Below the pieces are notes generated by a model. It was given only the letters and a program-made list of their open reading frames with translations. It made no database searches and had not been told where the DNA came from. From assembly GCA_004799435.1 (NCBI GenBank), contig SSMV01000141.1, positions 1-49,347 of the forward strand: a DNA stretch of 49,347 nt, read 5' to 3'. Source of the stretch: Bradyrhizobium sp. (GTDB lineage Bacteria; Pseudomonadota; Alphaproteobacteria; Rhizobiales; Beijerinckiaceae). Below, piece by piece: positions 15,396 through 33,953 of this stretch; the first letter of the stretch is position 1; each line of letters opens with the position of its first letter. The position numbers were made by a program, and so were the translations under genes.

Positions 15396-15420
15396 AACGG
15401 CGAGCGGCGCGAGCGGTTCC
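15396..15420 (-). promoter_or_regulatory. EcfG-type promoter for the PRC-barrel gene
   Basis: On the minus strand: GGAAC (15420-15416), 16 bp, CGTT (15399-15396), a perfect match to the alphaproteobacterial EcfG consensus, 35 bp before the start codon at 15360. Confidence 0.85.
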
Positions 15421-15539
15421 CATCTTGGGCCTCCCCGGCGCGCGAAGCGCATTCTCCAGCCGTGGGATGGATCGTTTTCGGCGAATTGGCGTTTAGCGTC
15501 GGGTCGATTCCCCGATCGCTGGGCGCCAGGGAGGCTGAC

Positions 15540-15932
15540 ATGCGCGGATCGCTGATGGCGGCTTTGAGCGTCGCATTCCTGGGCGGCGCAGCGCTTGCCG
15601 CGACGGCCCCGCAATTCGTTAGCCTGCAGGCTTCCGATATGCTGAGTTCGAATCTCGTCGGGCTCGATATTCGCGACGACGCCGGTCACGACATCGGCAA
15701 GATTCAGGACATCGCCTTCGACGGCTCCAAGGCGGTGAAGGGCTATGTGGTGGCGGTCGGCGGCTTTCTCGGCGTCGGCGCCCGCTTTGTTGTTGTCGAC
15801 ACCGCATCGGTGAGCTTCGACTACGACGCCGCCGCCAAGACCTGGCGCGCCAGCATGGACACGTCGGTCGATCAGCTTAAGTCCGCCCCCACTTTCCGGT
15901 ATCAGGGGCGGTGGAACGGCCCGAGGAGTTAG
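15540..15932 (+). CDS. Exported PRC-barrel domain protein
   Basis: A 130-aa protein from ATG 15540 with an AGGGAGG ribosome-binding site. It has a signal peptide (MRGSLMAALSVAFLGGAALAA) and then a PRC-barrel core: LVGLDIRDDAGHDIGKIQDI and VAVGGFLGVGARFVVVDTASV. Predicted periplasmic. It is divergent from the cytoplasmic PRC-barrel gene, so the window carries a compartment-split pair of the same fold. No EcfG promoter was found in its own upstream 120 bp, so its control differs from its neighbour. Confidence 0.82.
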   Translation: MRGSLMAALSVAFLGGAALAATAPQFVSLQASDMLSSNLVGLDIRDDAGHDIGKIQDIAFDGSKAVKGYVVAVGGFLGVGARFVVVDTASVSFDYDAAAKTWRASMDTSVDQLKSAPTFRYQGRWNGPRS

Positions 15933-16017
15933 AGCGTCGAGCCGTCAGCCATGATATTTTTAAGCCGCAATGCCCGCTGCGCGTCACGCATCGGCGAATG
16001 TCATTACAGCGAGCCTC

Positions 16018-17037
16018 ATGCGCAAATTCACCTGTCCGACCTGCGACACGCGTCTCTATTTTGAGAATTTCGTCTGCGAGACGTGCAGCTCTTCGCTGGC
16101 CTTCGATCCGCGTACGCAAGGATTCGAACGGCTCGACGGGGAGGAATCCGTCCTCGCCTGCGGCAATCGCAACCTCAATGTCTGCAATTGGCGCAAGGCC
16201 AATGCGGAGGACGCGTTCTGTCAATCGTGCCGCCTCGATCGAACGATTCCGCGGCTGAACGACGAGGCCAATGTCGAACTGTGGCGGCGTCTCGAGTTCG
16301 CCAAGCGTCGGGTGCTTTACGATCTCGGACGTTTGGGGCTTACGACGCCGGCGCGCGGGGACGGCTTGGAACTGGGCCTCGCCTTCGATTTTCTCGCTGC
16401 CGCCGACGGCAATGTCGTCACGGGCCACGACGGCGGCTTGATCACAATCAATCTCGCCGAGGCGGATGACGCGCGCCGCGAGCAAATCAGAACCGATCTG
16501 CACGAGCCCTATCGCACCCTGGTCGGTCATTTTCGCCATGAGTGCGGCCACTATCTCTGGCAGCGTTTCGTCGTCTCTGGCGAAGAGCTTGAGCGTTTCC
16601 GCGCCGTCTTCGGCGACGAGCGGCGTGATTACGCCCAAGCCTTGCGCGATCACTATGCGCGTCCGCCCGAGTGGCGCACGCAATTCGTCTCCGATTATGC
16701 CGCGTCGCACCCCTGGGAGGACTGGGCGGAATGCGCCGCCCATTATCTCCATATCGTCTCGACGCTCGACACGTTCATCAGTTCGCCGCTTGGGGCGCCA
16801 GAGCGCGCCAAGCCGGTGGACGATCCCTATCGGGAGAGCGATTTCGACGCGGTCCTGAGCCAGTGGTTCCCGCTTGCCGAGTCGCTCAACGAGCTCAACC
16901 GCTCGATGGGACTTCACGATCCCTATCCATTCGTGCTGACGCCGGCGACGATCGAGAAGCTGCGTCTCGTTCAGCAGATCCTTCGCCGTGCAGCGGCGTC
17001 CGACGCGACAATGGCGCACGCCGACGCTGTCGGCTAA
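16018..17037 (+). CDS. Zinc-ribbon putative zinc metallopeptidase
   Basis: A 339-aa protein when started at MRKFTCPTCD (ATG 16018), the usual opening of this family; an in-frame ATG at 15970 would add 16 poorly conserved residues. The N-terminus holds two CxxC-type zinc-ribbon pairs (CPTC, CETC) and a further Cys set (CGN, CNW, CQSC). A gluzincin-like HECGHY motif lies near residue 178, with downstream WEDWAECAAHYLHI that could supply a third zinc ligand. This matches the uncharacterised family annotated as putative zinc-binding metallopeptidase, common in Proteobacteria. No signal peptide; cytoplasmic. Substrate unknown. Confidence 0.83.
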   Translation: MRKFTCPTCDTRLYFENFVCETCSSSLAFDPRTQGFERLDGEESVLACGNRNLNVCNWRKANAEDAFCQSCRLDRTIPRLNDEANVELWRRLEFAKRRVLYDLGRLGLTTPARGDGLELGLAFDFLAAADGNVVTGHDGGLITINLAEADDARREQIRTDLHEPYRTLVGHFRHECGHYLWQRFVVSGEELERFRAVFGDERRDYAQALRDHYARPPEWRTQFVSDYAASHPWEDWAECAAHYLHIVSTLDTFISSPLGAPERAKPVDDPYRESDFDAVLSQWFPLAESLNELNRSMGLHDPYPFVLTPATIEKLRLVQQILRRAAASDATMAHADAVG

Positions 17038-17093
17038 CCGCGGCGAGAGGCGTTCCCGGTCGATCTAGCCGCCGCCGCCTCAACGTCGCCGCG

Positions 17094-17119
17094 GGAACCA
17101 TTTTCGACCTCTGGCGGTT
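17094..17119 (+). promoter_or_regulatory. Possible EcfG-type promoter (one mismatch)
   Basis: GGAAC, 17 bp, GGTT (or 16 bp then CGGT). It lies about 207 bp before the small membrane protein gene at 17326, farther than the other sites. Weak candidate for that gene and the kinase behind it. Confidence 0.4.
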
Positions 17120-17325
17120 TTATCGATGTGATTAGGCGGCGGATCAGCGCCAAAGCTATCGATTTCGGAAGTTGCTAACCGTCCCGCGCCCGCGCGCTTT
17201 CCCCCGGCGCGGCAGCGACGATGCATTGACCCTCCCTGCATTCGTCATCGGCGCGGGACGGTTGGCGACATGTCCCGCTGACGTGAACAGATCGGTTTGC
17301 GTCCTCGTCAAGAGGAGATTGTCCT

Positions 17326-17514
17326 ATGCGCACATTGCTCGCTTTGGCGGTTATCATCTATCTCGTTGGCGTCGGCATGGCCTTGTCGCCAACGATTCGA
17401 TCGCAATGGACCAGCGCCCCGGCGCCCGAACTTGTCGCCAGCGTCACGCAGGAACTGCCGGGCGCGCTCGCCTGGCCGGCGCGTAGCGTGCGGGCCATCG
17501 ACGGTCAGAACTGA
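17326..17514 (+). CDS. Small single-span membrane protein, paralogue of the one at 34040
   Basis: A 62-aa protein with an excellent ribosome-binding site (AGAGGAG, 8 bp before ATG). Residues 1-22 form a hydrophobic helix (MRTLLALAVIIYLVGVGMAL), followed by a short polar tail with the motif PGALAWPA near residue 45. The minus-strand protein at 34040-34243 has the same layout and near-identical motifs (LVVIIYLVGVGVQLAPT and PGALAWPM), so both are real members of one family. Its function is unknown; an inner-membrane anchor or an uncleaved signal is likely. It sits 43 bp upstream of a sensor kinase gene and may share its transcript. Confidence 0.78.
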   Translation: MRTLLALAVIIYLVGVGMALSPTIRSQWTSAPAPELVASVTQELPGALAWPARSVRAIDGQN

Positions 17515-17557: not shown

Positions 17558-18760
17558 ATGACCAATCCTGACGATACGCGTCCTCAGGGAGAGGAGAGCC
17601 CTGAACGCGGCGATCCGAACCTGACCCGCGCCTCGCGGCAGCAGATTCGTCAGCACGAAATCCTCGCCGAGCTGAGCATGAGCGCCCTGCAGGGCGCGGG
17701 CTTTGAGCAGCTTCTCGCCGACACCGCGCGCCTCTCCGCCGAGGGGCTGCGCACCGAGTTCTCCAAGGTGCTTGAATATCAGCCGGCGGAGAATCGTCTT
17801 CTTGTTCGCGCCGGCGTCGGCTGGGAGCCGGGGATCGTGGGCGTCGCGACGATCGACGCCGATCTTGGATCGCCCGCCGGATTCGCGCTGCAGACCGGCA
17901 AGCCGGTGATCTCCAACCGTCTCCAGGACGAGCAGCGCTTTCGGACCCCCGACATCCTGCGGCGCCATGGCGTCCATCGCGCCATGAACGTGATCCTGCA
18001 GGGCGAGGGACGGCCCTATGGCGTGCTCGAGGTCGATAGCGCGACCGACGAGCGCTTTGTCGAGCACGACGTGGCGTTTCTGCAGAGCGCCGCCAATCTT
18101 CTCGGCATGGCGCTTGAGCGAAGACAACGCGAGTTGAATCTTGAAGCCGCGCTGGAGCGTCATCAGTTCCTGATCAAGGAAATGAATCACCGGGTGAAGA
18201 ACAGCCTGGGGATCGTCGCCGGCCTGCTGCGGCTGCAGGCGCGTGGGCTTGAGGATGCGGGTTTTAAAGCCGAGCTTGAGGAGGCGGCCCGCCGCGTCGG
18301 CGCCGTCGCCAGGGCGCATGATCAATTGTTCCAAACGCCGGAAGTCGAATGGCTCGATGTCGGGCGCTACATCGAAGCCATCTGTCGCGATTTGGACGGA
18401 AGTTTTGCCGGATGCGACATTCAGGTCGAAGCGGAGCCGCGGATCGTGTTCTCGACCGACCGGGCGATTTCAGCGGCGCTGATCGTCAATGAATTGATCG
18501 CCAATGCGGTCAAACACGCCCATCCTGGCGCGGAGGCCGGGCCAGTCCGGGTTCGTGTCGCCAGCGCCGACGAGAACGAAATCCTGATCTCGGTGCGCGA
18601 CGAGGGCGACGGATTGCCAGCGGGCTTTCAACTTGGCAGGACCAGGGGACTGGGCATGCGGATCGTCAGTGCGCTGGTCGAGCAGATTAAAGGCGTCCTG
18701 ACGATCCTCGAGCACAGGCCGGGCGTCGAATTCGTCGTCACCGCGCCGCGAGAAGGCTAG
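17558..18760 (+). CDS. GAF-domain sensor histidine kinase, HisKA_2 type
   Basis: A 400-aa soluble kinase starting MTNPDDTRPQGEESPERGD. A GAF sensor domain spans about 35-185 (AGVGWEPGIVG, GFALQTGKPVISNRL, GVLEVDSATDERFVEHD). The H-box follows with His211 in EMNHRVKNSLGIVAGLLRLQ, the HisKA_2 dimerisation signature, then the ATPase domain with NELIANAVKHA and DEGDGLPAGF. This kinase class commonly feeds PhyR in the general stress response. No membrane segment, so it would sense a cytoplasmic cue. It ends 19 bp from a convergent nepR paralogue. Cognate regulator is inferred, not shown. Confidence 0.88.
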   Translation: MTNPDDTRPQGEESPERGDPNLTRASRQQIRQHEILAELSMSALQGAGFEQLLADTARLSAEGLRTEFSKVLEYQPAENRLLVRAGVGWEPGIVGVATIDADLGSPAGFALQTGKPVISNRLQDEQRFRTPDILRRHGVHRAMNVILQGEGRPYGVLEVDSATDERFVEHDVAFLQSAANLLGMALERRQRELNLEAALERHQFLIKEMNHRVKNSLGIVAGLLRLQARGLEDAGFKAELEEAARRVGAVARAHDQLFQTPEVEWLDVGRYIEAICRDLDGSFAGCDIQVEAEPRIVFSTDRAISAALIVNELIANAVKHAHPGAEAGPVRVRVASADENEILISVRDEGDGLPAGFQLGRTRGLGMRIVSALVEQIKGVLTILEHRPGVEFVVTAPREG

Positions 18761-18779: not shown

Positions 18780-18992
18780 TCATGACTCTTCTCGATCGCC
18801 ATCGAGTCGATTGAGCAGCTTCAGAAGTCGCTTCGGGATGGGCTGGGCGAGCGCCTCGTCATACATCGCCTTTAATTGACGAGCGATGGCGTCCTCCACG
18901 CCGCCGGTCGCCGCCGGCGCGTCGTCGTCGACAGGCGCCGCTTTAGCGTCGGCCTTCGATCGCCCGCGCATGGTCTTGTCGCCCAACTGCAT
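18780..18992 (-). CDS. NepR-family anti-sigma factor, second copy
   Basis: A 70-aa protein (start MQLGDKTMRGRSKADAK; the internal ATG at 18971 is an alternative giving 63 aa). The C-terminal half is a clear NepR domain: AIARQLKAMYDEALAQPIPK then RLLKLLNRLD, closely resembling the NepR at 25809-26030 (ISRHLKLMYDTVAGQPIPDR, FLELLNQLD). NepR binds EcfG until phosphorylated PhyR takes its place. This copy lies 142 bp downstream of an HWE kinase gene on the same strand, away from phyR and ecfG, and probably shares the kinase's transcript. It may act as a modulator or on a different EcfG paralogue; that is inference. Confidence 0.85.
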   Translation of the reverse strand: MQLGDKTMRGRSKADAKAAPVDDDAPAATGGVEDAIARQLKAMYDEALAQPIPKRLLKLLNRLDGDREES

Positions 18993-19134: not shown

Positions 19135-20637
19135 TCACCCCGTCGCGGCGGCGCGGGAATCCCAGCGGGTCACGATCTCGTTCACCGGCGCGCGCAACCG
19201 CCAAACCGCGCCTGCGGGATCGAACTCCAGATTCGCAGAAGCATGCAGACCTTCGGCGACCATGCCCTCGATCAGCACGCTGCCGAATCCACGAATGGAT
19301 TGAGGATCGACCGGCGGACCGCCGCGTTCGCGCCAGGTCATATCCAGAGAGGGTTCGTCGATATCCTCGTCGATTCGCCAATCGACCTCGACCTTGCCGC
19401 CGTCATTTGAGAAGGCGCCATAGGCGACGGCGTTGTTGAAGAGTTCGCGCAACGCCAGGCCGAGCGTTTGCGCCGATGTCGGACTCAAGAGCACCGTCGG
19501 CCCGGTGAGCGCGAAACGCTTTTTGCGATCCGCAGCCGGAAGGGTTACCTGCGCCAGCACCAGCGCTTCGAGTGGAACGCCGCGCCAGTTCTGACCGATC
19601 AGCAGGTCCTGACTGGCGAGCAAGCCCAGCAGTCGCTCCGAGAATTTTTCCTCGAATTGGCGCGCGGTCTTTGTGGAGGTCAGAGTTCGCCGGGCGATCG
19701 CCAGCGCGACGGCCAATAGATTGCGCGACCGGTGATTGACCTCGGTCATCAGGAACTTGACGTTTTCTTCGCGCAGCTTCTGGTCGTGAATGTCGGTGGT
19801 CGTCCCGTACCATTTGACGATCGTCCCGTCGGCGTCAGACAGCGGCGCCGCGCGGCTGAGATGCCACCTGTAGCCGTCGCCGATCGCCATGAGGCGGTGT
19901 TCCATCTGATAGGGCGTGCCGGCCTCGCTCGCCTCCAGCCATGCCTCGGCGGTGGCGCGCCGGTCTTCGGGATGGATGAAGGACGCCCAATCCACCCGGC
20001 TGAGCGCGCCGGTTCCGTAGCGCTCGCGCCGCGCATTCGTATAGTCGATGCGGCCATCGGGCCCGGCGGTCCAGACAAGTTGCGGCAAGCTGTCGGCGAG
20101 CAGACGGAAGCGCTCTTCGCTCGACTTCAGATCCCCTTCGACGCGCTTCTGCCGGATCGCCCGCTCACCCAATAATTTCGAGACCCCGGCGAGCGCCTGC
20201 GACAATTTGTCGAATTCGCGCACGCCACTGGGCGTCGGCGCGACGGGGGCGGCGCTGAAAACATGCTCAGCTTCGGCCTGCAACGTCCGGACCTGCCCTG
20301 CGAGGCGTCGACCGATGAAGATCGACAAGGCTAGGCTCATGACCAATGCGCCGGCCGTCACAATCATCATGAGACGGGGCGCGCCCCAGGCGGTCGTGAA
20401 CCCATCGGCGCCGTGGGACATGCCGACGATACAGCCGAGCATCAGCGCCATCGCGGCGATCAGCGGCAGAGCAACTGCGAGGGCCGCGGCGGCGAGGCGC
20501 CAATTGAGCGAGCGAGTCGTGCGCCAAGACGGCGACGGCCGACGGGTCTGGCCGCCGAGCCGGAGGCGCGCAAAGTCGGAGACATCTTTGCGCCGCTGAT
20601 CCATCATCCTCTCGCGCCAGGCGAACCCATCGGACAT
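19135..20637 (-). CDS. Membrane PAS-HWE sensor histidine kinase
   Basis: A 500-aa kinase starting MSDGFAWRER (ATG 20637; the frame is open to 20712). Two transmembrane helices (about 48-72 and 88-110) flank a short loop, then a PAS domain (about 175-290) with PAC-type WYGTTTDIHDQK. The H-box has His302 in EVNHRSRNLLAVALAIARRT, and the ATPase domain has LRELFNNAVAYGA and the diagnostic WRERGG of HWE kinases. A perfect EcfG promoter lies about 220 bp upstream, so the kinase is probably both an input to and a target of the general stress response (feedback). A nepR paralogue follows. No clear periplasmic sensor domain is present. Confidence 0.88.
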   Translation of the reverse strand: MSDGFAWRERMMDQRRKDVSDFARLRLGGQTRRPSPSWRTTRSLNWRLAAAALAVALPLIAAMALMLGCIVGMSHGADGFTTAWGAPRLMMIVTAGALVMSLALSIFIGRRLAGQVRTLQAEAEHVFSAAPVAPTPSGVREFDKLSQALAGVSKLLGERAIRQKRVEGDLKSSEERFRLLADSLPQLVWTAGPDGRIDYTNARRERYGTGALSRVDWASFIHPEDRRATAEAWLEASEAGTPYQMEHRLMAIGDGYRWHLSRAAPLSDADGTIVKWYGTTTDIHDQKLREENVKFLMTEVNHRSRNLLAVALAIARRTLTSTKTARQFEEKFSERLLGLLASQDLLIGQNWRGVPLEALVLAQVTLPAADRKKRFALTGPTVLLSPTSAQTLGLALRELFNNAVAYGAFSNDGGKVEVDWRIDEDIDEPSLDMTWRERGGPPVDPQSIRGFGSVLIEGMVAEGLHASANLEFDPAGAVWRLRAPVNEIVTRWDSRAAATG

Positions 20638-21098
20638 TGCCGGTCGTTCCGCCGTCTTGGGCGCATGTCGCCCCGGCGCCTCCGCCTGCTTCCAGGCGGC
20701 GCCATACGCCATTCGCCCTTCGCTCGGACAGGCCCCCGCCGCGCAACCGAGGCAGCCTTACCCAAAATCCAGTCCTTTCGGCCCGTGTCCGCAATTTCCG
20801 GGCTGGCGAAATCCGCGGATTGCCAGCGGCTTTCCGCGCATCGCGCCACAGGCGTAACGCTGAAAGGCGCGAAAGGTTCCAGCGCGAGCCGAAATTGTCG
20901 CTCCGCAACAGGGGCTTCAGTTCCCGCCGCGCGGGCCGACGCCGGCCCGCGACCGCCACCGCCAATGAAGATTAAAAAATGGCGCTGTTTCGCGGGCGAC
21001 ACCAAAACGACTGGAACTCAATCGGACCCACGCGGCTTACCGAGAGTGAAAGTGGCCAAACCTTGGCGAGCCGCCGGCGAGGCGGAGAGGAGAATGCG
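20638..21098. promoter_or_regulatory. Divergent control region holding the kinase promoter
   Basis: A 461-bp stretch between the HWE kinase and the small secreted protein gene. Overlapping frames of 66-232 aa on both strands have poor composition and no good starts; no gene is called. It holds the EcfG promoter at 20856-20880 (minus strand) and must hold the plus-strand promoter for 21099, for which no clear element is seen. Confidence 0.5.
20856..20880 (-). promoter_or_regulatory. EcfG-type promoter for the HWE kinase (and nepR copy)
   Basis: On the minus strand: GGAAC (20880-20876), 16 bp, CGTT (20859-20856), a perfect consensus match. The transcript would start near 20849 and carry a leader of about 210 nt before the called kinase start, or about 135 nt if the frame starts at 20712. 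Confidence 0.8.
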
Positions 21099-23088: not shown

Positions 23089-23576
23089 GCCCCGATTGGG
23101 ATTGCCAGCGTAGCCTCGAGCGCGGAGACGGAGACGCGCTCGCGAGCGTCTCCGGCGCGAAATGTCGGCTCCGGGTTGCGGAAGGGATTGCGCGGATCGT
23201 CGGCCAGGCGGGCCAAGGCGTCGAAGAGGTTGCGCTCAAGGCGCGATAGGGTCGTCATGAACCCGGCCTGCTCGACGCTCGCAGCGTTTCCCCGATCTGC
23301 TCCGCCATTCGTTCCGGCTCGCGCGGGAACGGGAGAAGACCAAGGCAGCGCCCAAGCGGCAGGGAGTTCGTCCATTGTCTCGCGCCCTCAGTTTTGGATC
23401 GAGGCCCGGCTCGATCGACGTCAAGCTTTTGGTTGCAAGCTTTTGTTCGGTTGGACGGAAGCGCCGCCCAACCTGACAATGCGCGTCGGCCCTTTCAGGT
23501 TCCAAGCTTGCTGCGCGCGCGTCGCGCGCGCGAAGCGGGCAAGATTTTTCAGCGAGATTTTTCGCCGGCGCGCCGT
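23089..23576. other. No confident gene between otsA and the DUF3309 gene
   Basis: The otsA frame stays open upstream to 23375 and contains an ATG at 23258 (MTTLSRLERNLFDALARLAD), so an N-terminally extended OtsA cannot be excluded. The ribosome-binding site at 23036 argues against it. Other frames look like shadows. A promoter begins at 23577. Confidence 0.4.
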
Positions 23577-23602
23577 GGAACAGATGGATCGTCTTACGCG
23601 TT
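23577..23602 (+). promoter_or_regulatory. EcfG-type promoter for the DUF3309 gene
   Basis: GGAAC (23577-23581), 17 bp, CGTT (23599-23602), perfect match, 35 bp before the ATG at 23638. Confidence 0.85.
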
Positions 23603-23637: not shown

Positions 23638-23790
23638 ATGCGCCTTATTCTGCTAATCCTCGTCGTCATCCTGCTCCTCGGCGCCTTGCCGACATGGCCC
23701 TATAGCGCGGGCTGGGGCTATTATCCCTCAGGCGGTCTGGGCACGGTTCTGATCGTCCTCATCGTGCTTGCGCTCTTCGGCGTCATATAG
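23638..23790 (+). CDS. DUF3309 family small membrane protein (50 aa)
   Basis: A 50-aa protein, below usual ORF cut-offs. It reads as two hydrophobic helices joined by a conserved loop: MRLILLILVVILLLGALPTW, then PYSAGWGYYPSGGLG, then a second Val/Leu/Ile helix. The LGALPTWPYSxGWGYxPSGGLG signature is that of DUF3309, a family widespread in Proteobacteria and of unknown function. A GGAG-type ribosome-binding site precedes the ATG, and a perfect EcfG promoter lies just upstream, which makes it a strong general stress response target. Predicted inner-membrane hairpin. Confidence 0.92.
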   Translation: MRLILLILVVILLLGALPTWPYSAGWGYYPSGGLGTVLIVLIVLALFGVI

Positions 23791-23898: not shown

Positions 23899-23923
23899 GG
23901 AACCCTGCCGACGATCGCGCGTT
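23899..23923 (+). promoter_or_regulatory. EcfG-type promoter for the DUF1236 gene
   Basis: GGAAC (23899-23903), 16 bp, CGTT (23920-23923), perfect match. The 5' leader to the ATG at 24038 would be about 105 nt. Confidence 0.85.
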
Positions 23924-25304: not shown

Positions 25305-25805
25305 TCAGACCCCCAGCCGCGTCGCCAGTTGAGAGCGCGCCCGAGACACGCGGCTCTTGACCGTGCCGATCGCGCAATTGCAGATCTCGGCCGCTTCCTC
25401 ATAGGAGAAGCCGGCCGCGCCGACGAGGATCAGCGCTTCGCGCTGATCGGGCGGCAGCTCCTGCATCGCCTTGTTGAAATCGAGGAAGTTCATATGGTCG
25501 TCTTGCGTCGGCTGTGAAACCAGCGTCGCGTAATGAATGCCGTCGCTGTCGGGCACTTCTCTCCGGTGCCGGCGGAATTCCGAATAATAGGTGTTTCGCA
25601 GGATCGTGAACAACCATGCCGACAGGTTTGTCCCGCTGGTGAAGGAGCGGAGATTGAGCAGCGCCTTCGTCAGACATTCCTGGACGAGATCGTCCGCGCG
25701 GTCGGAGTTCCCGCATAAGGACAGCGCAAAGGCTCTGAGCCTCGGGATGGATTCAACCATCCGCTGCTTGAGTTCGCGGTCCACCAGCGCAGCGTCAGCC
25801 GTCAT
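25305..25805 (-). CDS. ecfG: EcfG-type ECF sigma factor of the general stress response
   Basis: A 166-aa ECF sigma factor. Region 2 is visible as RLRAFALSLCGNSDRADDLVQECLTKAL-type sequence (in part AFALSLCGNSDRADDLVQEC) and LSAWLFTILRNTYYSEFRR; region 4 as LPPDQREALILVGAAGFSYE and AIGTVKSRVSRARSQL. The NTYYSEFRRHRREV segment is characteristic of the EcfG group. It directs RNA polymerase to GGAAC-N16/17-CGTT promoters and is held inactive by NepR. The start at 25805 is only 3 bp after the nepR stop, so the two are translated from one transcript driven by the perfect EcfG site at 26089-26113 (autoregulation). Confidence 0.95.
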   Translation of the reverse strand: MTADAALVDRELKQRMVESIPRLRAFALSLCGNSDRADDLVQECLTKALLNLRSFTSGTNLSAWLFTILRNTYYSEFRRHRREVPDSDGIHYATLVSQPTQDDHMNFLDFNKAMQELPPDQREALILVGAAGFSYEEAAEICNCAIGTVKSRVSRARSQLATRLGV

Positions 25806-25808
25806 TCG

Positions 25809-26030
25809 CTACGCGTCCTCATCATCGAGCTTGCCGTCAAGCTGATTGAGCAGTTCGAGGAACCGATCGGGAATCGGCTGTCCCGCCACCGTGTCGTACA
25901 TAAGCTTCAGGTGGCGGCTGATGTGGTCTTTGACATTGGCGTCGATGGGATCGGGCGGCGTGGAAGCCTCGCTCGCCAGGTTCTGGCGGGGGGCTTCATC
26001 TTGAACACCGGAAGTCTTATCTTCTGCCAC
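25809..26030 (-). CDS. nepR: NepR anti-sigma factor
   Basis: A 73-aa anti-sigma factor with a GTG start at 26030. An acidic, variable N-terminus (MAEDKTSGVQDEAPRQ) leads to the NepR core: DHISRHLKLMYDTVAGQPIP, then DRFLELLNQLD. Two amphipathic helices of this core clamp EcfG regions 2 and 4, and move to the sigma-like domain of phosphorylated PhyR under stress. The order nepR-ecfG with divergent phyR is the standard alphaproteobacterial arrangement. A paralogue is encoded at 18780-18992. Confidence 0.94.
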   Translation of the reverse strand: MAEDKTSGVQDEAPRQNLASEASTPPDPIDANVKDHISRHLKLMYDTVAGQPIPDRFLELLNQLDGKLDDEDA

Positions 26031-26088
26031 GTCAATGTCTCGAGCCGGAGGGCCAACGCGCCGAGCGAAAGCCCAGGCGTCGTGTCGT

Positions 26089-26113
26089 AACGTTCGCCCG
26101 CAAATTTCGTTCC
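26089..26113 (-). promoter_or_regulatory. EcfG-type promoter for nepR-ecfG
   Basis: On the minus strand: GGAAC (26113-26109), 16 bp, CGTT (26092-26089), perfect match, 58 bp before the nepR start. It implies positive autoregulation of ecfG. Confidence 0.9.
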
Positions 26114-26121
26114 CGCCGGGC

Positions 26122-26146
26122 GGAACAAATTTTGGACTGACGAGTT
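26122..26146 (+). promoter_or_regulatory. EcfG-type promoter for phyR (one mismatch)
   Basis: GGAAC (26122-26126), 16 bp, AGTT (26143-26146), one mismatch from CGTT. Its -35 element forms an inverted pair with that of the nepR promoter (GTTCC, 8 bp, GGAAC at 26109-26126). Confidence 0.7.
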
Positions 26147-26188: not shown

Positions 26189-27031
26189 ATGGCGGATTCG
26201 GCCATGATTGCGCCGCACATCCCCTTCTTGCGCCGTTTTGCGCGGGCGCTTGCAGGAACCCAGTCGGCGGGCGACGCCTATGTCGCGACCACGCTGGAGG
26301 CGATCGTCGCGGATCCGAGCGTCCTGGGCGACAAACTGGATCCAAAAGCCGAGATTTATCGTTTATTTTTAAGGACATGGCGGGACGTTCCGACCAATAA
26401 TGTGGTCGACCGGCCGAGCTTCGGCGATGAGGCGGCGGCGGGCAGACGGCTTGGGGCGATCGGGGTCGAACCCAGGCTCGCATTTTTGCTCAGCGCCGTG
26501 GAATCCTTTACCCCGGCCCAGATCGGCCAGGCGCTCGGCTGTTCCGAACGTGAGGCCAATGCGCTGATCGATCGCGCCGGGCGAGAAATTGCCGAACAGA
26601 TCCGCACCAGCGTTCTCATAATCGAAGACGAACCGCTGATCGCCCTCGATTTGCGCACTCTCGTCGAACAACTCGGCCATGACGTCACGACGATTGCGCG
26701 CACCCATACCGAGGCGGTCCGCGCTGCGTTCAAAGACCGGCCTGGCGTGATACTCGCCGATATTCAGCTTGCCGACGGTAGTTCCGGGCTTGAGGCGGTC
26801 AATGAGATTCTCGGCGAGCAGGAAGTGCCGGTCATATTCATCACGGCCTTTCCCGAGCGCTTCCTCACGGGACGCGCGCCTGAACCGGCATTTTTGATCA
26901 CCAAGCCGTTCACGGCGGAATCGGTCAAGGCGGTCTTGAGCCAGGCGCTGTTTTTCGAGCGCAAGTCGCAGCGAAAATCGGTGAAGGGCAAGGTCGATCG
27001 CATTCCGCCGACCGCCGGCGCAGTGGCCTAG
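26189..27031 (+). CDS. phyR: PhyR stress response regulator (sigma-like domain plus receiver)
   Basis: A 280-aa anti-anti-sigma factor with AGGAGG before the ATG. Residues 1-140 mimic an ECF sigma factor (regions 2 and 4; FTPAQIGQALGCSEREANAL). Residues 141-260 form the receiver: EDEP (acidic pocket, 146-149), phospho-acceptor Asp191 in LADIQLADGSSG, Thr219 in VIFITAFPE and Lys239 in FLITKPF. The FATGUY-type ITAFPERFLTG variant fits PhyR receivers. On phosphorylation the sigma-like domain binds NepR and frees EcfG. It is divergent from nepR-ecfG; the stop overlaps a convergent gene by 3 bp. Kinases encoded at 17558, 19135 and 28266 are candidate phosphodonors. Confidence 0.96.
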   Translation: MADSAMIAPHIPFLRRFARALAGTQSAGDAYVATTLEAIVADPSVLGDKLDPKAEIYRLFLRTWRDVPTNNVVDRPSFGDEAAAGRRLGAIGVEPRLAFLLSAVESFTPAQIGQALGCSEREANALIDRAGREIAEQIRTSVLIIEDEPLIALDLRTLVEQLGHDVTTIARTHTEAVRAAFKDRPGVILADIQLADGSSGLEAVNEILGEQEVPVIFITAFPERFLTGRAPEPAFLITKPFTAESVKAVLSQALFFERKSQRKSVKGKVDRIPPTAGAVA

Positions 27032-27426
27032 GTTTTGCGGCCGGCGACAAAGCCGGCCAAGGCCGCGGCCAGCACAAGCTGGAACGGAGTCATTTGCTGG
27101 GCAAGCTCAAGACCGAGCGCGGCGCTGGTCGCCTGTGCGGCGCTTGCCTGAGATCTGGCTTGCCCGCGTGGCGCGACGCCGCGCCGGGCGCCGACGGCGC
27201 TCCGCCAGACGAATAGAATGACGGCGAGGAGCAGGTAGAAGCCCGCGACGGCGGCAGCCGCGTCTATCGCGTCGTATTTGACCCGAAGCGACTCCAACAC
27301 CGCCGCCGTGGCAAAGCCAAGCCCGACCAGTCCCGCAGCCGCGCCGGCGCACGCGAGAACGGCGCGCGTCAGGCAGCGGCGAAGGGGCATTTGCAACCCA
27401 GCGATTAACGACTGCACCGGCAGCAT
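27028..27426 (-). CDS. Small membrane protein, phage-holin/DUF1469-like
   Basis: A 132-aa protein with two clear transmembrane helices (about 22-46, AVLACAGAAAGLVGLGFATA, and about 55-75, AAAAVAGFYLLLAVILFVW) and a short C-terminal hydrophobic segment (LVLAAALAGFVAGRKT). The layout resembles the putative actinobacterial-holin-X/DUF1469 proteins often encoded next to DUF883 genes. It starts 6 bp after the DUF883 gene, so the two form an operon. Its tail overlaps the end of phyR. Family assignment is tentative. Confidence 0.7.
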   Translation of the reverse strand: MLPVQSLIAGLQMPLRRCLTRAVLACAGAAAGLVGLGFATAAVLESLRVKYDAIDAAAAVAGFYLLLAVILFVWRSAVGARRGVAPRGQARSQASAAQATSAALGLELAQQMTPFQLVLAAALAGFVAGRKT

Positions 27427-27432
27427 CGCCGC

Positions 27433-27750
27433 TTATCCGCGCGACTTGGTCATCACGCCTAGCGCAAGGCCAATTCCGGCGGCGATCAGAACGGCGGTCA
27501 AGGGATTCTTTTCGATGCGGCGTTCGAAATCCGCCGCGGCGGTGAGAGCAGTGTCCTGCGCCGCGCCGGCCGCCTGCGAGACTTGCGATCGCGCGTCGCC
27601 GACAGCGTTGCGGATCGCCGCGCCGGCTGACTTCGTCTCGCCGCGCACAAGCTCCGCCAACGCGTCCTTCATACGCGCCACATCGTCGCGCAGTTGAGTC
27701 AAATCGGCGGCGACGGCGGCGGCGCTGGCTTCGGGTTTGTCGTGGGTCAT
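27433..27750 (-). CDS. DUF883 (ElaB/YqjD-like) membrane-anchored protein
   Basis: A 105-aa protein: a helical, Ala-rich region (LTQLRDDVARMKDALAELVR, AGAAIRNAVGDARSQVSQAA) and a C-terminal helix (IEKNPLTAVLIAAGIGLALG, then VMTKSRG), the hallmark tail anchor NPLxAVxIAAGIGxxLG of the ElaB/YqjD/DUF883 family. In enterobacteria these bind ribosomes at the inner membrane in stationary phase; a similar role here is inference. An AGGAG ribosome-binding site precedes the ATG. No EcfG site was seen in the 100 bp upstream. Confidence 0.85.
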   Translation of the reverse strand: MTHDKPEASAAAVAADLTQLRDDVARMKDALAELVRGETKSAGAAIRNAVGDARSQVSQAAGAAQDTALTAAADFERRIEKNPLTAVLIAAGIGLALGVMTKSRG

Positions 27751-27852: not shown

Positions 27853-28011
27853 CTAGGCGCTGTCGACCAGCCCGATGAAAACCATGCCGGACGCGATCGC
27901 CATCAGATCGCACAGGCTGCCGATCGTGTCGCCGATCGGAACGATGAATCCCAGTCCTGCGGCGAGCGCCGCCGAACACACGAGACCGCTGCCAATCGTT
28001 AAGAGTCCCAT
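27853..28011 (-). CDS. Very small two-helix membrane protein (52 aa)
   Basis: A 52-aa protein beginning MGLLTIGSGLVCSAALAAGL and ending MAIASGMVFIGLVDSA: two hydrophobic helices with a GDTIGSLCD linker. ATG at 28011 has a strong GGAGGG 6 bp upstream, and a perfect EcfG promoter (17-bp spacer) lies 65 bp before it. The ribosome-binding site and promoter together make it a credible stress-induced gene despite no family match. Confidence 0.75.
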   Translation of the reverse strand: MGLLTIGSGLVCSAALAAGLGFIVPIGDTIGSLCDLMAIASGMVFIGLVDSA

Positions 28012-28075: not shown

Positions 28076-28101
28076 AACGCGCGATCTCGGGTTTGAGTTC
28101 C
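28076..28101 (-). promoter_or_regulatory. EcfG-type promoter for the 52-aa membrane protein
   Basis: On the minus strand: GGAAC (28101-28097), 17 bp, CGTT (28079-28076), perfect match. Confidence 0.8.
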
Positions 28102-28265
28102 TTTGCCAAGCCGGCGAATGCGCAGCCACGCTCGCAATGCGCCGGCCGTCGGGTAGGAATTCCACCGAGGGCGGTTGTCGTTGTATTTTTCAGTGGCGCG
28201 GCGCAGATTGCGACGCCTATCCGCCGGCGGCGCGCCAGCGCCAACGCAGGGTGACGACCAGTCTC

Positions 28266-29687
28266 ATGACCCTCCCGCCGATCGACCTGGGCCGGCAAGC
28301 CCAGGCCTTGCAAGATCAAGCCTCGCCGGATGAGACCCTGCAAGACGAGGCTTTGCCGTCGGATTTGCCGGTCGCCGTTTATCGGACCGACGAAGCGGGA
28401 CGGATCACCTACCTCAACCAGGCGGCCGCCAGTTTGTGGGGTCGTCCGAGGCTTGGCGAAGGCGAGCTCTCCGGGTCGGTGAAGCTCGCCCGATCGGACG
28501 GAACCGAACTGGGGCCCGGGGAGACCGCGGCGGCGATCGCGCTCAGCGAGCGCCGCGCGGTGCGCGGGATGGAGGTTCTGGCGCTGCGTTCTGGAAAGCC
28601 GCCGGTTCGCTTTCTGTGTTTTGCGTCGCCGCGGTTCGATGACGCCGGGCGGGCCGTCGGCGCGGTGACGACGATGGTCGAGGCCGGCGATAACGCAGCC
28701 GACGAACACTCGACCCGACACTATGCAGCGATTGTCGAATCGTCGGACGACGCCATCCTCTCGAAGGACCTCGACGGCGTCATCACCAGTTGGAATCGCG
28801 GCGCCGAGCGCTTGTTCGGCTATACGGCCGAGGAGGCCGTCGGCCGGTCGGTGACGATCCTCATTCCGAGCGACCGGCTCCACGAGGAGCCGGAGATCCT
28901 AAGCCGCATCCGTCGCGGCGAGCGCATCGATCACTACGAGACGGTTCGCCAGCGCAAGGACGGCGCGCTGATCGACATTTCTCTCACCGTCTCGCCCATG
29001 CGCGATTCCTGGGGCCGCGTCTGGGGCGCCTCCAAGATTGCGCGTGACATCACCGAGCGCAAACTGGCGCAGGAGCAGCAACGTCTTCTGCTGCGCGAGA
29101 CGGATCACCGTGTGCGAAATCTCTTCGCCATCACCAGCGGTCTTGTCATCCTCAGCGCGCGAGCGGCGCAGACGCCGGACGAACTCGCTTCCAAGCTGCG
29201 CGCGCGGTTGGGCGCCTTGGCGCGCGCGCATGCGCTGCTGTTTTCCAATGCGTCGGGGGACGCCGAGCAGCCGACGACATTTGGGGCGTTGATCCGCACG
29301 ATTCTCTCACCCTACGACGCGCCGACGAATGGCGGGTCGTCGCGCGTCAGCATCGCCGGACCGGATATTCCTCTTTCCGCCCGCGCGCTGACGGGCGTCG
29401 CCCTGCTGCTGAATGAATTCGCCACCAACGCCGCCAAATATGGCGCCCTGTCGATTCCGGAAGGATCCATCGACATTGAATTCTCGGACGACGGCGAAAC
29501 CATCGCTTTCGCCTGGAGGGAGCGCGGCGGCCCCAGGCTGGAGCCTCAAGGCGCGAACGAGGGCTTCGGCAGCTTCCTCGTGCGCACCACCGTCGAGAGC
29601 CAGCTCAACGGCGAGATCACCCGTAATTGGGCGCCTGAAGGCTTGATCGTCAGATTGTCAATTCCGCGCAATCGCCTCACCGAATGA
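28266..29687 (+). CDS. Soluble PAS-PAS HWE sensor histidine kinase
   Basis: A 473-aa kinase started at MTLPPIDLGRQAQ (ATG 28266); the frame is open upstream but overlaps the minus-strand gene's promoter. Two PAS domains are visible: about 32-140 (VAVYRTDEAGRITYLNQAAA) and about 150-268 (IVESSDDAILSKDLDGVITS, WGASKIARDITERK). The H-box has His281 in ETDHRVRNLFAITSGLVILS; the ATPase domain has LLNEFATNAAKYGAL, FAWRERGG and GFGSFLV, all HWE features. No membrane segment. It is a likely input into PhyR, by family precedent and location 1.2 kb from phyR. Confidence 0.88.
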   Translation: MTLPPIDLGRQAQALQDQASPDETLQDEALPSDLPVAVYRTDEAGRITYLNQAAASLWGRPRLGEGELSGSVKLARSDGTELGPGETAAAIALSERRAVRGMEVLALRSGKPPVRFLCFASPRFDDAGRAVGAVTTMVEAGDNAADEHSTRHYAAIVESSDDAILSKDLDGVITSWNRGAERLFGYTAEEAVGRSVTILIPSDRLHEEPEILSRIRRGERIDHYETVRQRKDGALIDISLTVSPMRDSWGRVWGASKIARDITERKLAQEQQRLLLRETDHRVRNLFAITSGLVILSARAAQTPDELASKLRARLGALARAHALLFSNASGDAEQPTTFGALIRTILSPYDAPTNGGSSRVSIAGPDIPLSARALTGVALLLNEFATNAAKYGALSIPEGSIDIEFSDDGETIAFAWRERGGPRLEPQGANEGFGSFLVRTTVESQLNGEITRNWAPEGLIVRLSIPRNRLTE

Positions 29688-29741: not shown

Positions 29742-29766
29742 GGAACGAAGCGCGCGGCCGGGCGTT
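29742..29766 (+). promoter_or_regulatory. EcfG-type promoter for the Pro-rich ORF and GH15 gene
   Basis: GGAAC (29742-29746), 16 bp, CGTT (29763-29766), perfect match, 69 bp before the small Pro-rich ORF and 335 bp before the GH15 gene on the same strand. Confidence 0.82.
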
Positions 29767-29835: not shown

Positions 29836-30027
29836 ATGAAGGAGCCGCGTCAACCGGCGCCGACGCCGGGACCCGATGTCGTCCATCCACCGACGCCGTC
29901 GGAGAAACGACCAGAGGCGCCGATGGGCGTTCCTCTGACGCCCCAGGTCGAAGAACCCGCGCCAAAGCCTGAGACGCCTTCTTCGCCGCCGCAGGAAATT
30001 CCCGTTCCGCCGGCAGGCCTTTTCTAG
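29836..30027 (+). CDS. Small proline-rich protein (63 aa)
   Basis: A 63-aa ORF from ATG 29836, beginning MKEPRQPAPTPGPDVVHPPT and ending PPQEIPVPPAGLF. About one residue in three is Pro, with Glu, Lys and Thr; it is surely disordered. GAGG lies 6-7 bp upstream of the ATG, and a perfect EcfG promoter is 69 bp upstream. It could be a real stress-induced disordered protein or a leader ORF before the GH15 gene (75 bp downstream). No signal peptide. Confidence 0.55.
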   Translation: MKEPRQPAPTPGPDVVHPPTPSEKRPEAPMGVPLTPQVEEPAPKPETPSSPPQEIPVPPAGLF

Positions 30028-30101: not shown

Positions 30102-31949
30102 ATGCCGAGCCGCATTGAGGATTACGCCGTCATCGGCAATTGCGAGACGCTCGCGCTGGTCGGCATAGACGGCTCGATCGACTGGCTCTGTCTGCCGCGC
30201 TTCGATCGCAGTGCATGTTTCGCCGGGCTGCTCGGCGATTCCGAGCACGGGCGCTGGCTGATCGGGCCGGCAAGCGACGACGCGCGCGCGACGCGCCGCT
30301 ATGTGGGTGACACGCTCATTCTCGAGACGCAATTCGCCGATGAATTGGGAGCGGCGACCGTCACCGATTTCATGAGCCGGCGGGACGGCTGCGCCGATAT
30401 CGTTCGCGTCGTGCGCGGCGTTCGCGGCAAACTGACGATGCGCGTCGAGATCGTCGTGCGCTTCGACTATGGCTCCGTCACGCCCTGGGCGGTCCGGCTG
30501 GATGACGGTCGTCAGCAGTTCACCGCCGGTCCTGACCGACTGTTGCTCGACGCGGCGACGCCGATGCGCGGCGAAAATATGCGCACGGTCGGGACATTCA
30601 CGATCGCCGCTGGCGAGGAACTCTGCTTCGTCCTGACCTGGTCGCCCTCCTATCGCCCAATACCCCCGCGCATTGACGCGGCCAAGACTCTCGAACATGT
30701 CGAAAAATTCTGGTCCGGATGGGCGACGAAATTCGATCGCTCGCATCCCTGGGCCGACGCCGAGCTGCGCTCGCTTCTGACCCTCAAGGCGCTCTCGCAT
30801 TGGGAGACGGGCGGAATTGTCGCCGCCGGCACGACCTCGCTGCCGGAAAAGCTCGGCGGCCCGCGCAACTGGGACTATCGCTATTGCTGGCTTCGCGACG
30901 CGACTTTCACGCTTTACGCGCTGATCGGCGCCGGCTTCATCGAAGAAGCCGAAGCTTGGCGGGAATGGCTATTGCGTGCGACGGCGGGAACGCCCAACGA
31001 CCTGCAGATCATGTATGGTCTCGGCGGCGAGCGGCGGCTCGACGAATATGAAGTGCTCTGGCTGCCGGGATATGAAGGCGCCCAGCCGGTGAGAATCGGC
31101 AATGCCGCCGCCAAGCAGCTTCAGCTCGATGTCTATGGCGAAGTGCTCGACGCTTTCTACGTCGGGCGCAAAGCCGGATTGGCGGCGAGCGGCGCAAGCT
31201 GGGCGCTCGAATGCGCGCTTCTCGCGCATCTGGAGACCATCTGGCGCGAGCCGGACGATGGAATCTGGGAGATGCGGGGCGGGCGCAAGCTCTTTACCCA
31301 TTCCAGAGTGATGGCCTGGGTCGCCTTCGATCGCGGCGTGCGCTCGGTCGAGGAGTTCGGACTCGAGGGCCCGTTGGAGCGCTGGCGCGACTTGCGTTCG
31401 CAGATCCATGGGGAGGTCTGCGAGCACGGATTCGACGCGCGACAGAATTCATTCGTGCAATATTTCGGCGGGACGACGCTCGACGCCAGTCTGCTGCTCA
31501 TCCCGATCGTCGGCTTTCTTGCGGCCGAGGACAAAAGAGTGCGCGGCACGGTTGCAGCAATCGAGCGCGGGTTGCTGCGCGACGGCTTCGTGCTGCGCTA
31601 TGATTCGGGGACGGGAACCGACGGCCTGCCGCCGGGCGAGGGCGCGTTCCTCGCCTGCAGTTTTTGGCTGGCCGACAATTATGTTCTCGCGGGCCGCAAC
31701 GACGAAGCGCGAGCTCTCTTCGAGCGATTGCTGACCTTGCGCAACGACGTGGGATTGCTGGCCGAGGAATACGACCCGCGCGATCGCCGCCAGCTCGGCA
31801 ATTTCCCGCAAGCTTTCTCTCACCTCGCATTGATCAACACGGCGCGCAATCTCGCCGCGGCAATCGGCCCCGCCGCGCACCGCGCCTCGCGCGCCAACGC
31901 CGGGGCGCCCGATCGCGCGCCGCGCGAGGAGAACGAGAGGGTTGGCTAG
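30102..31949 (+). CDS. Glycoside hydrolase family 15 (glucoamylase/trehalase-like) protein
   Basis: A 615-aa cytoplasmic protein from ATG 30102, opening MPSRIEDYAVIGNCETLALV, the standard start of bacterial GH15 proteins. An N-terminal beta-sandwich (about 1-220) precedes an (alpha/alpha)6 barrel with GGPRNWDYRYCWLRDATFTL, LGGERRLDEYEVLWLPGYEG, a probable general-acid region, and LLAEEYDPRDRRQLGNFPQA near the C-terminus. GH15 enzymes release glucose from alpha-glucans; actinobacterial members act as trehalases. Next to otsA in a stress island, a role in trehalose or glycogen turnover is plausible. An EcfG promoter lies 335 bp upstream. The stop overlaps a convergent SDR gene. Confidence 0.9.
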   Translation: MPSRIEDYAVIGNCETLALVGIDGSIDWLCLPRFDRSACFAGLLGDSEHGRWLIGPASDDARATRRYVGDTLILETQFADELGAATVTDFMSRRDGCADIVRVVRGVRGKLTMRVEIVVRFDYGSVTPWAVRLDDGRQQFTAGPDRLLLDAATPMRGENMRTVGTFTIAAGEELCFVLTWSPSYRPIPPRIDAAKTLEHVEKFWSGWATKFDRSHPWADAELRSLLTLKALSHWETGGIVAAGTTSLPEKLGGPRNWDYRYCWLRDATFTLYALIGAGFIEEAEAWREWLLRATAGTPNDLQIMYGLGGERRLDEYEVLWLPGYEGAQPVRIGNAAAKQLQLDVYGEVLDAFYVGRKAGLAASGASWALECALLAHLETIWREPDDGIWEMRGGRKLFTHSRVMAWVAFDRGVRSVEEFGLEGPLERWRDLRSQIHGEVCEHGFDARQNSFVQYFGGTTLDASLLLIPIVGFLAAEDKRVRGTVAAIERGLLRDGFVLRYDSGTGTDGLPPGEGAFLACSFWLADNYVLAGRNDEARALFERLLTLRNDVGLLAEEYDPRDRRQLGNFPQAFSHLALINTARNLAAAIGPAAHRASRANAGAPDRAPREENERVG

Positions 31950-32777: not shown

Positions 32778-32788
32778 TGCCGTCGCGT

Positions 32789-33253
32789 TCAGGGCTTCTT
32801 GGGGCCACCGCCCGTGCTGCCGGTGTGGCCGCCCATCTTGTTGCCACCCATCTTGTTCCCGCCCATCGTGCCCATCGGGCGATTGAAGGTGTGGATGGGG
32901 GTGTTTCCACCGGTGGTATGAGGAGTCCATCCCGGATGCCCATGATCGTGATCGTGATCATGGCGGAAGTCGTGACCGGGCCGGGACCAGCCGCGGAAGC
33001 CGTAACCACCGCCCCAGCCATAGCCATTGTTCCAAGCGTAGCCGCACCAGTACCAACCCGGACCGCGCCAGCCGGAATCGTACCAGCAGTAATTATTGCC
33101 GTCGAAGAAGAACTGGACTTGCTGCAGCGGCGCAAGGCCGCTTTGAGTCAGGTCGGAGTTCAAGGTTCCGTCGGTTACGGCCGCGTCCGCCGCAGCGACG
33201 CCACACACCGCCAAGATCGTGGCGAGCGTTGTGGCTGCGAGTGCGTTCCTCAT
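32789..33253 (-). CDS. Exported Gly/Trp/His-rich protein
   Basis: A 154-aa protein from ATG 33253 (AGGAGAG ribosome-binding site). It has a signal peptide (MRNALAATTLATILAVCGVA, then ADAAV), a Trp/Tyr/Gly-rich middle (NYCWYDSGWRGPGWYWCGYA, with two Cys), a His-Asp run (RHDHDHDHGH) that could bind metal, and a Gly/Met/Thr-rich tail with a repeated GGNKM. Such low-complexity envelope proteins are frequent in Hyphomicrobiales; function unknown. A perfect EcfG promoter with 17-bp spacer lies 99 bp upstream. Confidence 0.8.
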   Translation of the reverse strand: MRNALAATTLATILAVCGVAAADAAVTDGTLNSDLTQSGLAPLQQVQFFFDGNNYCWYDSGWRGPGWYWCGYAWNNGYGWGGGYGFRGWSRPGHDFRHDHDHDHGHPGWTPHTTGGNTPIHTFNRPMGTMGGNKMGGNKMGGHTGSTGGGPKKP

Positions 33254-33351
33254 TTTGTCTCTCCTGTCGTTCATCTGTTGTTCATTCCGAGTGCGAGCTG
33301 TCGCCGCGCTGTCGCCGTCCGACGCGTCGCGTTCTCGATCTCAGCTATTCC

Positions 33352-33377
33352 AACGCGGAAGCGATGAATGTCGTTCC
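33352..33377 (-). promoter_or_regulatory. EcfG-type promoter for the Gly/Trp-rich secreted protein
   Basis: On the minus strand: GGAAC (33377-33373), 17 bp, CGTT (33355-33352), perfect match. Confidence 0.82.
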
Positions 33378-33527
33378 TTCTCGCCGTTCACGAGTCGGAT
33401 AGCGAAAGCGACCGAACGAGGTTTCGCGGTCAATGAGGATCGAGTCGCGCGCGCCTCCGCTCGCGCGCGCGTCGCATGTCGTCGCGCGTCGAACGCTGCA
33501 GGCTGCTTTGGATGTTCGGCGGGTCGA

Positions 33528-33851
33528 TCAGATCAATTCGACGCGCACATGAACGACGCCGGCGCGGCGCATCCCGAGAACGTCCGCCGCGACATCTGAG
33601 AGATCGATGATGCGTCCATAGGCGTAAGGTCCGCGATCGACGATGACGACCACGACGCTGCGGCCATTGTCGAGATTGGTCACGCGAACGCGCGTTCCGA
33701 ATGGCAGCGTCAGATGCGCCGCGATCAGGCCGGGGTGCCAGGGATTGTGGTAATAGGTCGCAAGCCCATACTGGTCCGCCAACGCCGTCGAACTCATGGC
33801 AACGCTGGCCATAAGGGCGGCGGCGCAGGCCGCCGAAATGGTCGATTTCAT
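33528..33851 (-). CDS. RlpA-like double-psi beta-barrel protein
   Basis: A 107-aa exported protein from ATG 33851 (AGGAGAC ribosome-binding site). The signal peptide [20 protein letters not shown] ends at ALADQ; the mature part is a compact RlpA/expansin-type double-psi beta-barrel: [40 protein letters not shown] and [15 protein letters not shown]. RlpA proteins bind or cleave denuded peptidoglycan glycans. It lacks the lipobox and SPOR domain of full-length RlpA. The leader carries a 19-bp tandem repeat and a perfect EcfG promoter, so cell-wall remodelling under stress is likely. Confidence 0.87.
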
Positions 33852-33872
33852 TCTTGTCTCCTGGCGATGGGC

Positions 33873-33910
33873 TTTGTCCACGCGCGGGCTATTTGTCCAC
33901 GCGCGGGCTA
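33873..33910. repeat. 19-bp tandem duplication in the rlpA-like leader
   Basis: Two exact head-to-tail copies of TTTGTCCACGCGCGGGCTA at 33873-33891 and 33892-33910, between the promoter and the start codon of the RlpA-like gene, so both would be in its 5' leader. Confidence 0.9.
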
Positions 33911-33927
33911 TCGGCAAGGCGATCTAA

Positions 33928-33953
33928 AACGCGCCAGCCCAGATGATGGTTCC
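33928..33953 (-). promoter_or_regulatory. EcfG-type promoter for the RlpA-like gene
   Basis: On the minus strand: GGAAC (33953-33949), 17 bp, CGTT (33931-33928), perfect match, 76 bp before the start codon. Confidence 0.82.

Follow-up and report, generated by a model that had tools for sequence, protein, structure and literature searches.

Predicted EcfG promoters are packed around the phyR locus of a Bradyrhizobium sp.

The PhyR-NepR-EcfG switch is already well known, and contig SSMV01000141.1 of Bradyrhizobium sp. (assembly GCA_004799435.1) holds a strong instance of it. The whole contig (C48; 49,347 bp) was analysed and is called the window here; the host genome (G000) comprises 3,514,132 bp in 194 contigs. 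Within the stretch 15396-33953 lie the gene for the general stress extracytoplasmic function (ECF) sigma factor EcfG, nepR1 for its anti-sigma factor and phyR for the anti-anti-sigma factor, together with a second nepR and three HWE/HisKA_2 kinase genes (Table 1); domain families were assigned by Pfam and relatives of solved structure by sequence search. The nepR1-ecfG pair (25305-26030, minus strand), an operon as predicted from its arrangement, is divergent from phyR, and 5uxx, the best solved relative of EcfG, also holds NepR (5uxx_B). Genome-wide there are one clear EcfG, one PhyR and three NepR genes, and the window contains EcfG, PhyR and two of the NepR genes as well as three of the seven HWE_HK matches. 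All three of these kinases carry the HRXXN motif as defined in the literature. The second NepR, missing from the list of the original prediction (an earlier reading of this DNA from its letters), is 46% identical to NepR1 over 54 aa and is proposed to put a second brake on EcfG; the order HWE1-nepR2-HWE2 is conserved in the relative G002. Families besides the regulators include OtsA (Glyco_transf_20, 5.1e-128), GH15, CsbD (2.4e-18), DUF3309, DUF1236, two PRC-barrel proteins, RlpA-like, SDR and others.

The strict pattern GGAAC-N16/17-CGTT, whose N16 form is the motif described for R. etli EcfG1 and Sphingopyxis granuli (PMC3892343, PMC7083833), occurs exactly nine times in the window, always within 15396-33953, just where the original prediction had placed nine perfect sites. 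Window shuffles (n=100) had a mean of 1.02 matches and at most 6, none reaching nine. Each of the nine sites is intergenic and correctly oriented, with a start 36-144 bp downstream according to a host-trained gene model supplemented by the Pro-rich open reading frame (ORF) at 29836; the orientation had been foreseen correctly, but the range of 35-220 bp given for these distances does not hold for the perfect sites, 220 bp being the distance of the otsA near match under one choice of start. The model, a simple hexamer caller trained on 310 kb of the host genome, overlooked both the Pro-rich ORF and a NepR gene on contig C125 (see below). Over the same 310 kb, 359 decoys with permuted box pairs found 2118 placements, 167 (7.9%) of them well placed (start within 350 bp, as for the host strict sites), 1750 intragenic and 201 other; 133 placements fell inside the stretch, 18 of them well placed (mean 0.37 and maximum 3 per decoy). 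The whole genome has 66 strict matches, one per 53 kb, which agrees with the chance rate of one per 50-70 kb estimated beforehand, and 65 matches to the reversed pattern that served as control. From the 57 matches outside the window, 0.305 would be expected in the 18,558-bp stretch (Poisson p ~5e-11). Since nine of the 66 lie there, the stretch is about 30-fold denser than the rest of the genome, in the comparison that the original prediction had called for, run here with the strict pattern. The clustering is confirmed, well above chance, which supports the claim that regulators and targets are gathered as a stress island.

Sites with one mismatch extend the island. Between 14992 and 34250, 10 of 20 are well placed (here, start within 250 bp), versus none of the 8 in the flanks, which also lack exact matches; the original prediction had seen none in the gene gaps of the flanking rhamnose, biuret and mod regions. 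These sites add seven genes: phyR, csbD, otsA, the ORFs at 24958 and 17326 and, weakly, the second PRC-barrel gene and a Peptidase_Mx gene. Near matches had been expected before the first three and the 17326 gene, and all four were found. Both arms of the divergent regulator locus carry a candidate promoter, exact for nepR1-ecfG and, for phyR, with one mismatch only. A further one-mismatch site aimed at phyR, 26087-26111 (+), overlaps the exact nepR1-ecfG site. The perfect site assigned to "the HWE kinase" is borne out for HWE2, and not for the other two of the three kinases.

Table 1. Predicted EcfG sites and regulatory genes of the island, with one neighbouring gene pair
Feature	Position	Strand	Remarks
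Exact site	15396-15420	-	36 bp before PRC-barrel gene 14992-15360
Exact site	20856-20880	-	144 bp before HWE2
Exact site	23577-23602	+	36 bp before DUF3309 gene 23638-23790
Exact site	23899-23923	+	115 bp before DUF1236 gene 24038-24454
Exact site	26089-26113	-	59 bp before nepR1-ecfG
Exact site	28076-28101	-	65 bp before 52-aa membrane protein gene 27853-28011
Exact site	29742-29766	+	70 bp before Pro-rich ORF 29836-30027; GH15 gene 30102-31949 is 336 bp away
Exact site	33352-33377	-	99 bp before Gly/Trp-rich secreted protein gene 32789-33253
Exact site	33928-33953	-	77 bp before RlpA-like (DPBB) gene 33528-33851
One-mismatch site (AGTT)	26122-26146	+	43 bp before phyR
One-mismatch site (CATT)	24834-24858	-	before csbD 24568-24759
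One-mismatch site (CATT)	24896-24921	+	before small ORF 24958-25149
One-mismatch site (CATT)	23478-23503	-	before otsA (stop 21582; start 23258 or 23375)
One-mismatch site (GGTT)	17094-17119	+	before 17326-17514; GGTT fits a published C/GGTT consensus
Weak one-mismatch site (GGATC-CGTT)	15469-15493	+	before PRC-barrel gene 15540-15932
Weak one-mismatch site (CGTC)	15913-15938	+	before Peptidase_Mx gene 16018-17037
ecfG, general stress ECF sigma factor	25305-25805	-	Pfam Sigma70_r2/r4_2; 5uxx_A E 4.8e-50
nepR1, anti-sigma factor	25809-26030	-	GTG start; directly 5' of ecfG; Pfam NepR 7.6e-14
phyR, anti-anti-sigma factor	26189-27031	+	Pfam PhyR_sigma2, PhyR_sigma-like, Response_reg; best solved relative 4g97_A, E 3e-78
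nepR2, second NepR	18783-18992	-	between two kinase genes; Pfam NepR 5.6e-11, 42.3 bits, cut-off 25.7
HWE1, GAF-HisKA_2/HWE kinase	17558-18760	+	HRVKN (by eye); no own site; 44 bp after 17326 ORF
HWE2, PAS-HWE kinase	19135-20712	-	HRSRN (by eye); exact site 144 bp upstream
HWE3, PAS-PAS-HWE kinase	28251-29687	+	HRVRN (by eye); no own site found
Gene pair (132 aa; 105 aa, DUF883-like by a weak Pfam match below cut-off)	27028-27750	-	no own site

Comparison with relatives indicates that this arrangement recurs. A PhyR search (E up to 1e-40) found the protein in 26 of 41 genomes, the host included, and 20 phyR regions from 18 of the 25 relatives with PhyR were compared (G001, G006, G025, G029, G036, G037 and G039 were left out; G002 entered with part of a contig only, carrying 3 of its 8 sites). 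These regions hold 86 strict sites versus 5.82 expected from each genome's own total, with genome sizes rounded. Outside the phyR zone, which runs from 800 bp ahead of the low end of phyR to 1600 bp past it, there are 56 of the 86, spread over 14 of the 18 genomes, G020 contributing 17; the reversed control gave 5. In G020, the segment C89:114000-146000 (loci L073 and L074) contains two phyR genes 18 kb apart, and its 32 kb hold 21 strict sites, more than any other of the 18 relatives has. The two loci overlap by 991 bp, which was corrected in this count and left uncorrected in the 99-locus placement count given below.

A second set of named loci comprised the best 80 of a longer list, from which 44 were used, one per genus label, with 60 of the 359 decoys run on them; L089 was removed as a duplicate of G022, the sole duplicate check between the two sets, before the 99-locus placement count and the comparison of loci with complete flanks. 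At 0-1, 1-3, 3-5, 5-8 and 8-11 kb from phyR these 44 loci have 69, 57, 19, 11 and 7 strict sites, or 5.7, 3.5, 1.2, 0.5 and 0.5 per 10 kb, and the decoys show means of 2.9, 3.7, 3.4, 4.6 and 2.8 (maxima 18, 12, 11, 17 and 9), averaging 0.20-0.24 per 10 kb. The excess within 1 kb of phyR is 24-fold over decoys, and in each of the three bins up to 5 kb the count surpasses the highest decoy. One site or more is present in 42 of the 44 loci, three or more in 25. Placement was scored in 99 phyR loci, where 297 of 402 sites are well placed (start within 300 bp, the limit also used for clustering site-bearing genes), 81 are intergenic with no start in that range and 24 are intragenic. Some of the 81 may drive small RNAs, comparable to ReC64 as described in R. 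etli, or missed small genes. With 8 sites within 8 kb of phyR, the host is equalled or exceeded by 8 of the 62 loci with complete flanks (median over these loci 4), six of the eight being Microvirga: its site density is high, and not exceptional among phyR loci.

The genes behind these sites belong to recurrent families. After NepR and PhyR/EcfG, the site-bearing clusters near phyR with the most genus labels are DUF883-like (15), DUF1328 (13), PRC-barrel (12), CsbD (11), DUF1236-like (9), AI-2E (6) and DUF3309 (5), where each count includes the host's own gene, with or without a site. No low-complexity filter was applied in building the clusters, and those named DUF883-like and DUF1236-like may therefore be loose. 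Of the 17 genomes with a DUF3309 match, 8 have one within 10 kb of phyR (the host, G008, G009, G013, G014, G020, G029 and G037). The small recurring genes for DUF3309, DUF883-like, DUF1328 and DUF1236-like proteins, with that for the host's 52-aa protein, are likely core stress genes.

Three relatives illustrate both likeness and difference, with 8, 8 and 21 strict sites around phyR in G002 (C330), G008 (C434) and G020 (C89), respectively. The 15.6-kb contig C330 carries nepR-ecfG, HWE3, HWE1-nepR2-HWE2 and phyR, and six of its eight strict sites have a start within 350 bp, the limit applied to the G002, G008 and G010 loci. HWE kinases and CsbD are shared by G002 and G008, the latter also having DUF3309 and OtsA, while the G020 locus includes DUF3309 and two nepR genes. 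The three depart from the host in gene order and content, however, EcfG of both G002 and G008 is 54% identical to that of the host, and G020 has two phyR genes.

What is directly established, namely the gene families, the positions and orientation of the sites, their enrichment and their recurrence around phyR in relatives, is very probably explained by a known PhyR-NepR-EcfG control locus with part of its targets packed around it, most units having their own EcfG promoter. That EcfG transcribes these genes we infer from the motif and the gene families. The mechanism known for the family, in which the signal passes from kinase to PhyR to NepR to EcfG (PMC4814048, PMC8103513), suggests a phosphorelay and a partner switch here too, with EcfG reading the sites. 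The three HWE/HisKA2 kinases would sense stress and phosphorylate PhyR, which would then bind NepR and free EcfG. Freed EcfG would transcribe nepR1-ecfG and phyR in a positive feedback, and also HWE2, a feedback onto a kinase. It would further read about 13 units, among them PRC-barrel, DUF3309, DUF1236, CsbD, OtsA (trehalose synthesis), GH15 and envelope or secreted proteins.

In its core the locus matches the described alphaproteobacterial phyR/nepR-ecfG (ECF15) locus, with divergent nepR-ecfG and phyR, EcfG-type promoters on both and an HRXXN kinase nearby (PMC4814048, PMC8103513); the host's extras are the number of HWE/HisKA2 kinases, the second NepR and the roughly 13 additional predicted units in 19 kb. 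Published direct targets in S. granuli, which uses the same motif, are nepR2-ecfG1, phyR1, phyR2, the HWE kinase adjoining phyR2 and csbD (PMC7083833), and reported targets of the general stress response (GSR) elsewhere include csbD, a PRC-barrel gene and genes that make trehalose by another route. Methylobacterium extorquens AM1 likewise is described with several NepR paralogs in one genome, but none of its six ecfG genes is reported at the phyR locus or with an EcfG-type promoter, unlike the host's EcfG with its perfect site. The portions of the R. etli and S. granuli accounts drawn on here describe no packing of targets around phyR, except for the noncoding RNA ReC64 downstream of R. etli phyR-tcrY, and such packing was not met in the excerpts used from the literature on EcfG and GSR systems. 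Less expected is the large number of predicted targets next to the control genes of a sigma factor whose regulon is dispersed. The packing recurs over many genera and falls steeply by 5 kb, and this is the part worth following.

Several observations weigh against this account. Over the whole genome, the strict pattern is about as frequent as its reversed control, so that isolated distant sites are individually unreliable, and two of the one-mismatch sites (15469 and 15913) are weak. The strict and one-mismatch scan found no own site for HWE1, HWE3, nepR2, the genes at 21099, 27028, 27433 and 34040, or the SDR gene. Among the relatives, 4 of 18 have sites solely in the phyR zone, the counts beyond 5 kb stay within the highest decoy, and the nepR-ecfG loci of G001, G003, G006 and G017, covered over 7-19 kb, contain 1, 1, 0 and 0 strict sites. 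Another ECF sigma factor, encoded on contig C184, might share the motif.

How did the targets come to lie here? The clustering may be historical, produced by local duplication and rearrangement near phyR with no advantage of position. This is compatible with a known control locus surrounded by part of its targets, and we consider it quite possible, if somewhat short of probable. Paralogs are at hand within the window (the proteins at 17326 and 34040; NepR1 and NepR2), the PRC-barrel, CsbD, 52-aa and 21099-type proteins are shared with contig C125, and the phyR locus of G008 mixes homologs of the window set with those of the C125 set. Yet the genes near phyR that carry sites belong to many unrelated clusters, and loci under many genus labels show the same accumulation. 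A bolder proposal is that in Hyphomicrobiales the EcfG regulon generally collects at the phyR locus: targets with promoters of their own would build up within about 5 kb of the genes for the sigma factor and its switch, gene content would be shuffled between islands, and nearness itself would be selected; freshly made EcfG might, for example, act first on nearby promoters, or regulator and targets might be inherited together. The descriptive half of this draws on the counts, placements and clusters in relatives, the selected role of position being conjectural, and as a whole it strikes us as rather unlikely. The role of position near the sigma factor gene becomes a directly testable question.

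The block, or much of it, could also have been acquired horizontally as a mobile stress island, a distinctly improbable origin in our judgement. Stress genes stand side by side in it, and in G010 the OtsA, GH15-type and DUF3309 homologs lie on a contig other than that of phyR; their locus has one strict site, which is intragenic, and therefore no well-placed strict site serves those genes. PhyR identities to the host are uneven as well: G002 has 77%, G010 74% and the other same-genus genomes with a match 44-63%, when other genera reach 64%. Apart from G002 and G010, PhyR of the same genus is thus no closer than that of other genera, which indicates a history that is not simply vertical, and the spread of 44-77% within one genus (G001, G002, G004, G006-G010) suggests that it may hold more than one phyR lineage. 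However, GC content is not atypical (62-67% in the island, 63-72% in the flanks), the window has no tRNA gene, and the kinase and phyR genes are together in G002 too. No Pfam match to an integrase or transposase was found among 26 island proteins and two neighbours, no dedicated integrase search being made. In sum, the block resembles a modular, shuffled collection of stress genes, parts of which may have been transferred.

It is highly unlikely that the sites are mainly read by a different ECF sigma factor that shares the motif. The foremost candidate would be C184:1779-2222, the next-best EcfG match in the genome at 37% identity; this protein and one on C18 score above the PhyR_sigma2 cut-off, which is also true of EcfG, and EcfG paralogs are reported in several alphaproteobacteria. 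But C184 has no NepR match, and the nepR1-ecfG and phyR sites fit the EcfG autoregulation described elsewhere. Chance or base composition acting on a short degenerate pattern, to which the genome-wide tie with the reversed control might point, is ruled out by the shuffles, by the mostly intragenic decoys and by the same pile-up around phyR in relatives.

The island is part of the regulon only, to judge from dispersed sites and a second cluster. Of the 57 strict sites outside the window, 26 are well placed, 19 intragenic, 7 intergenic with no suitable start and 5 on C125 (four well placed, one not); the decoy rate predicts about 5 well placed by chance. The window accounts for 9 of the 39 well-placed strict sites (23%), and the idea that the whole regulon lies inside islands was dropped in view of the 26. 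Genes at distant well-placed sites include a trehalose-phosphatase gene (C71) and, named by eye, universal-stress-type and peroxiredoxin-like genes and a relative of the Gly/Trp-rich secreted protein. The cluster C125:41231-44555 has its five sites in 3.3 kb amid DUF892, CsbD, an AI-2E transporter, a glycogen-debranching-type enzyme, a glycosyltransferase, PRC-barrel, a single receiver protein and the third NepR. Its paralogs of window proteins are PRC2 (53%), CsbD (39%), the 21099 protein (32%) and the 52-aa protein (46% over 26 aa). The contig, covered here as locus L031 (G000 C125:36000-46073), ends 1.5 kb past the last site, and the cluster may therefore extend further. Site groups on C113, C72 and C25 were rejected as further clusters; their placement is mixed and none has a NepR, unlike C125.

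Some genes with no site of their own may be read from a neighbour's. The 27028-27750 pair follows the 52-aa gene on the same strand and is hence possibly read from 28076-28101; homologs of both its genes adjoin phyR in G010. HWE1, downstream of the site-bearing 17326 gene on the same strand, could be read from that site, and a perfect site about 470 bp before its ortholog in G002, with no called gene between, gives only suggestive footprint support to this near match. The small proteins encoded at 17326-17514 and 34040-34243, near opposite ends of the island, are 55% identical. Outside the window there are four HWE kinase matches, three of them no more than about 1.4 kb from a strict site (C20:10124, C31:15030 and C72:13789); 26 bp after the C31 site begins a gene that by eye resembles a single-domain receiver.

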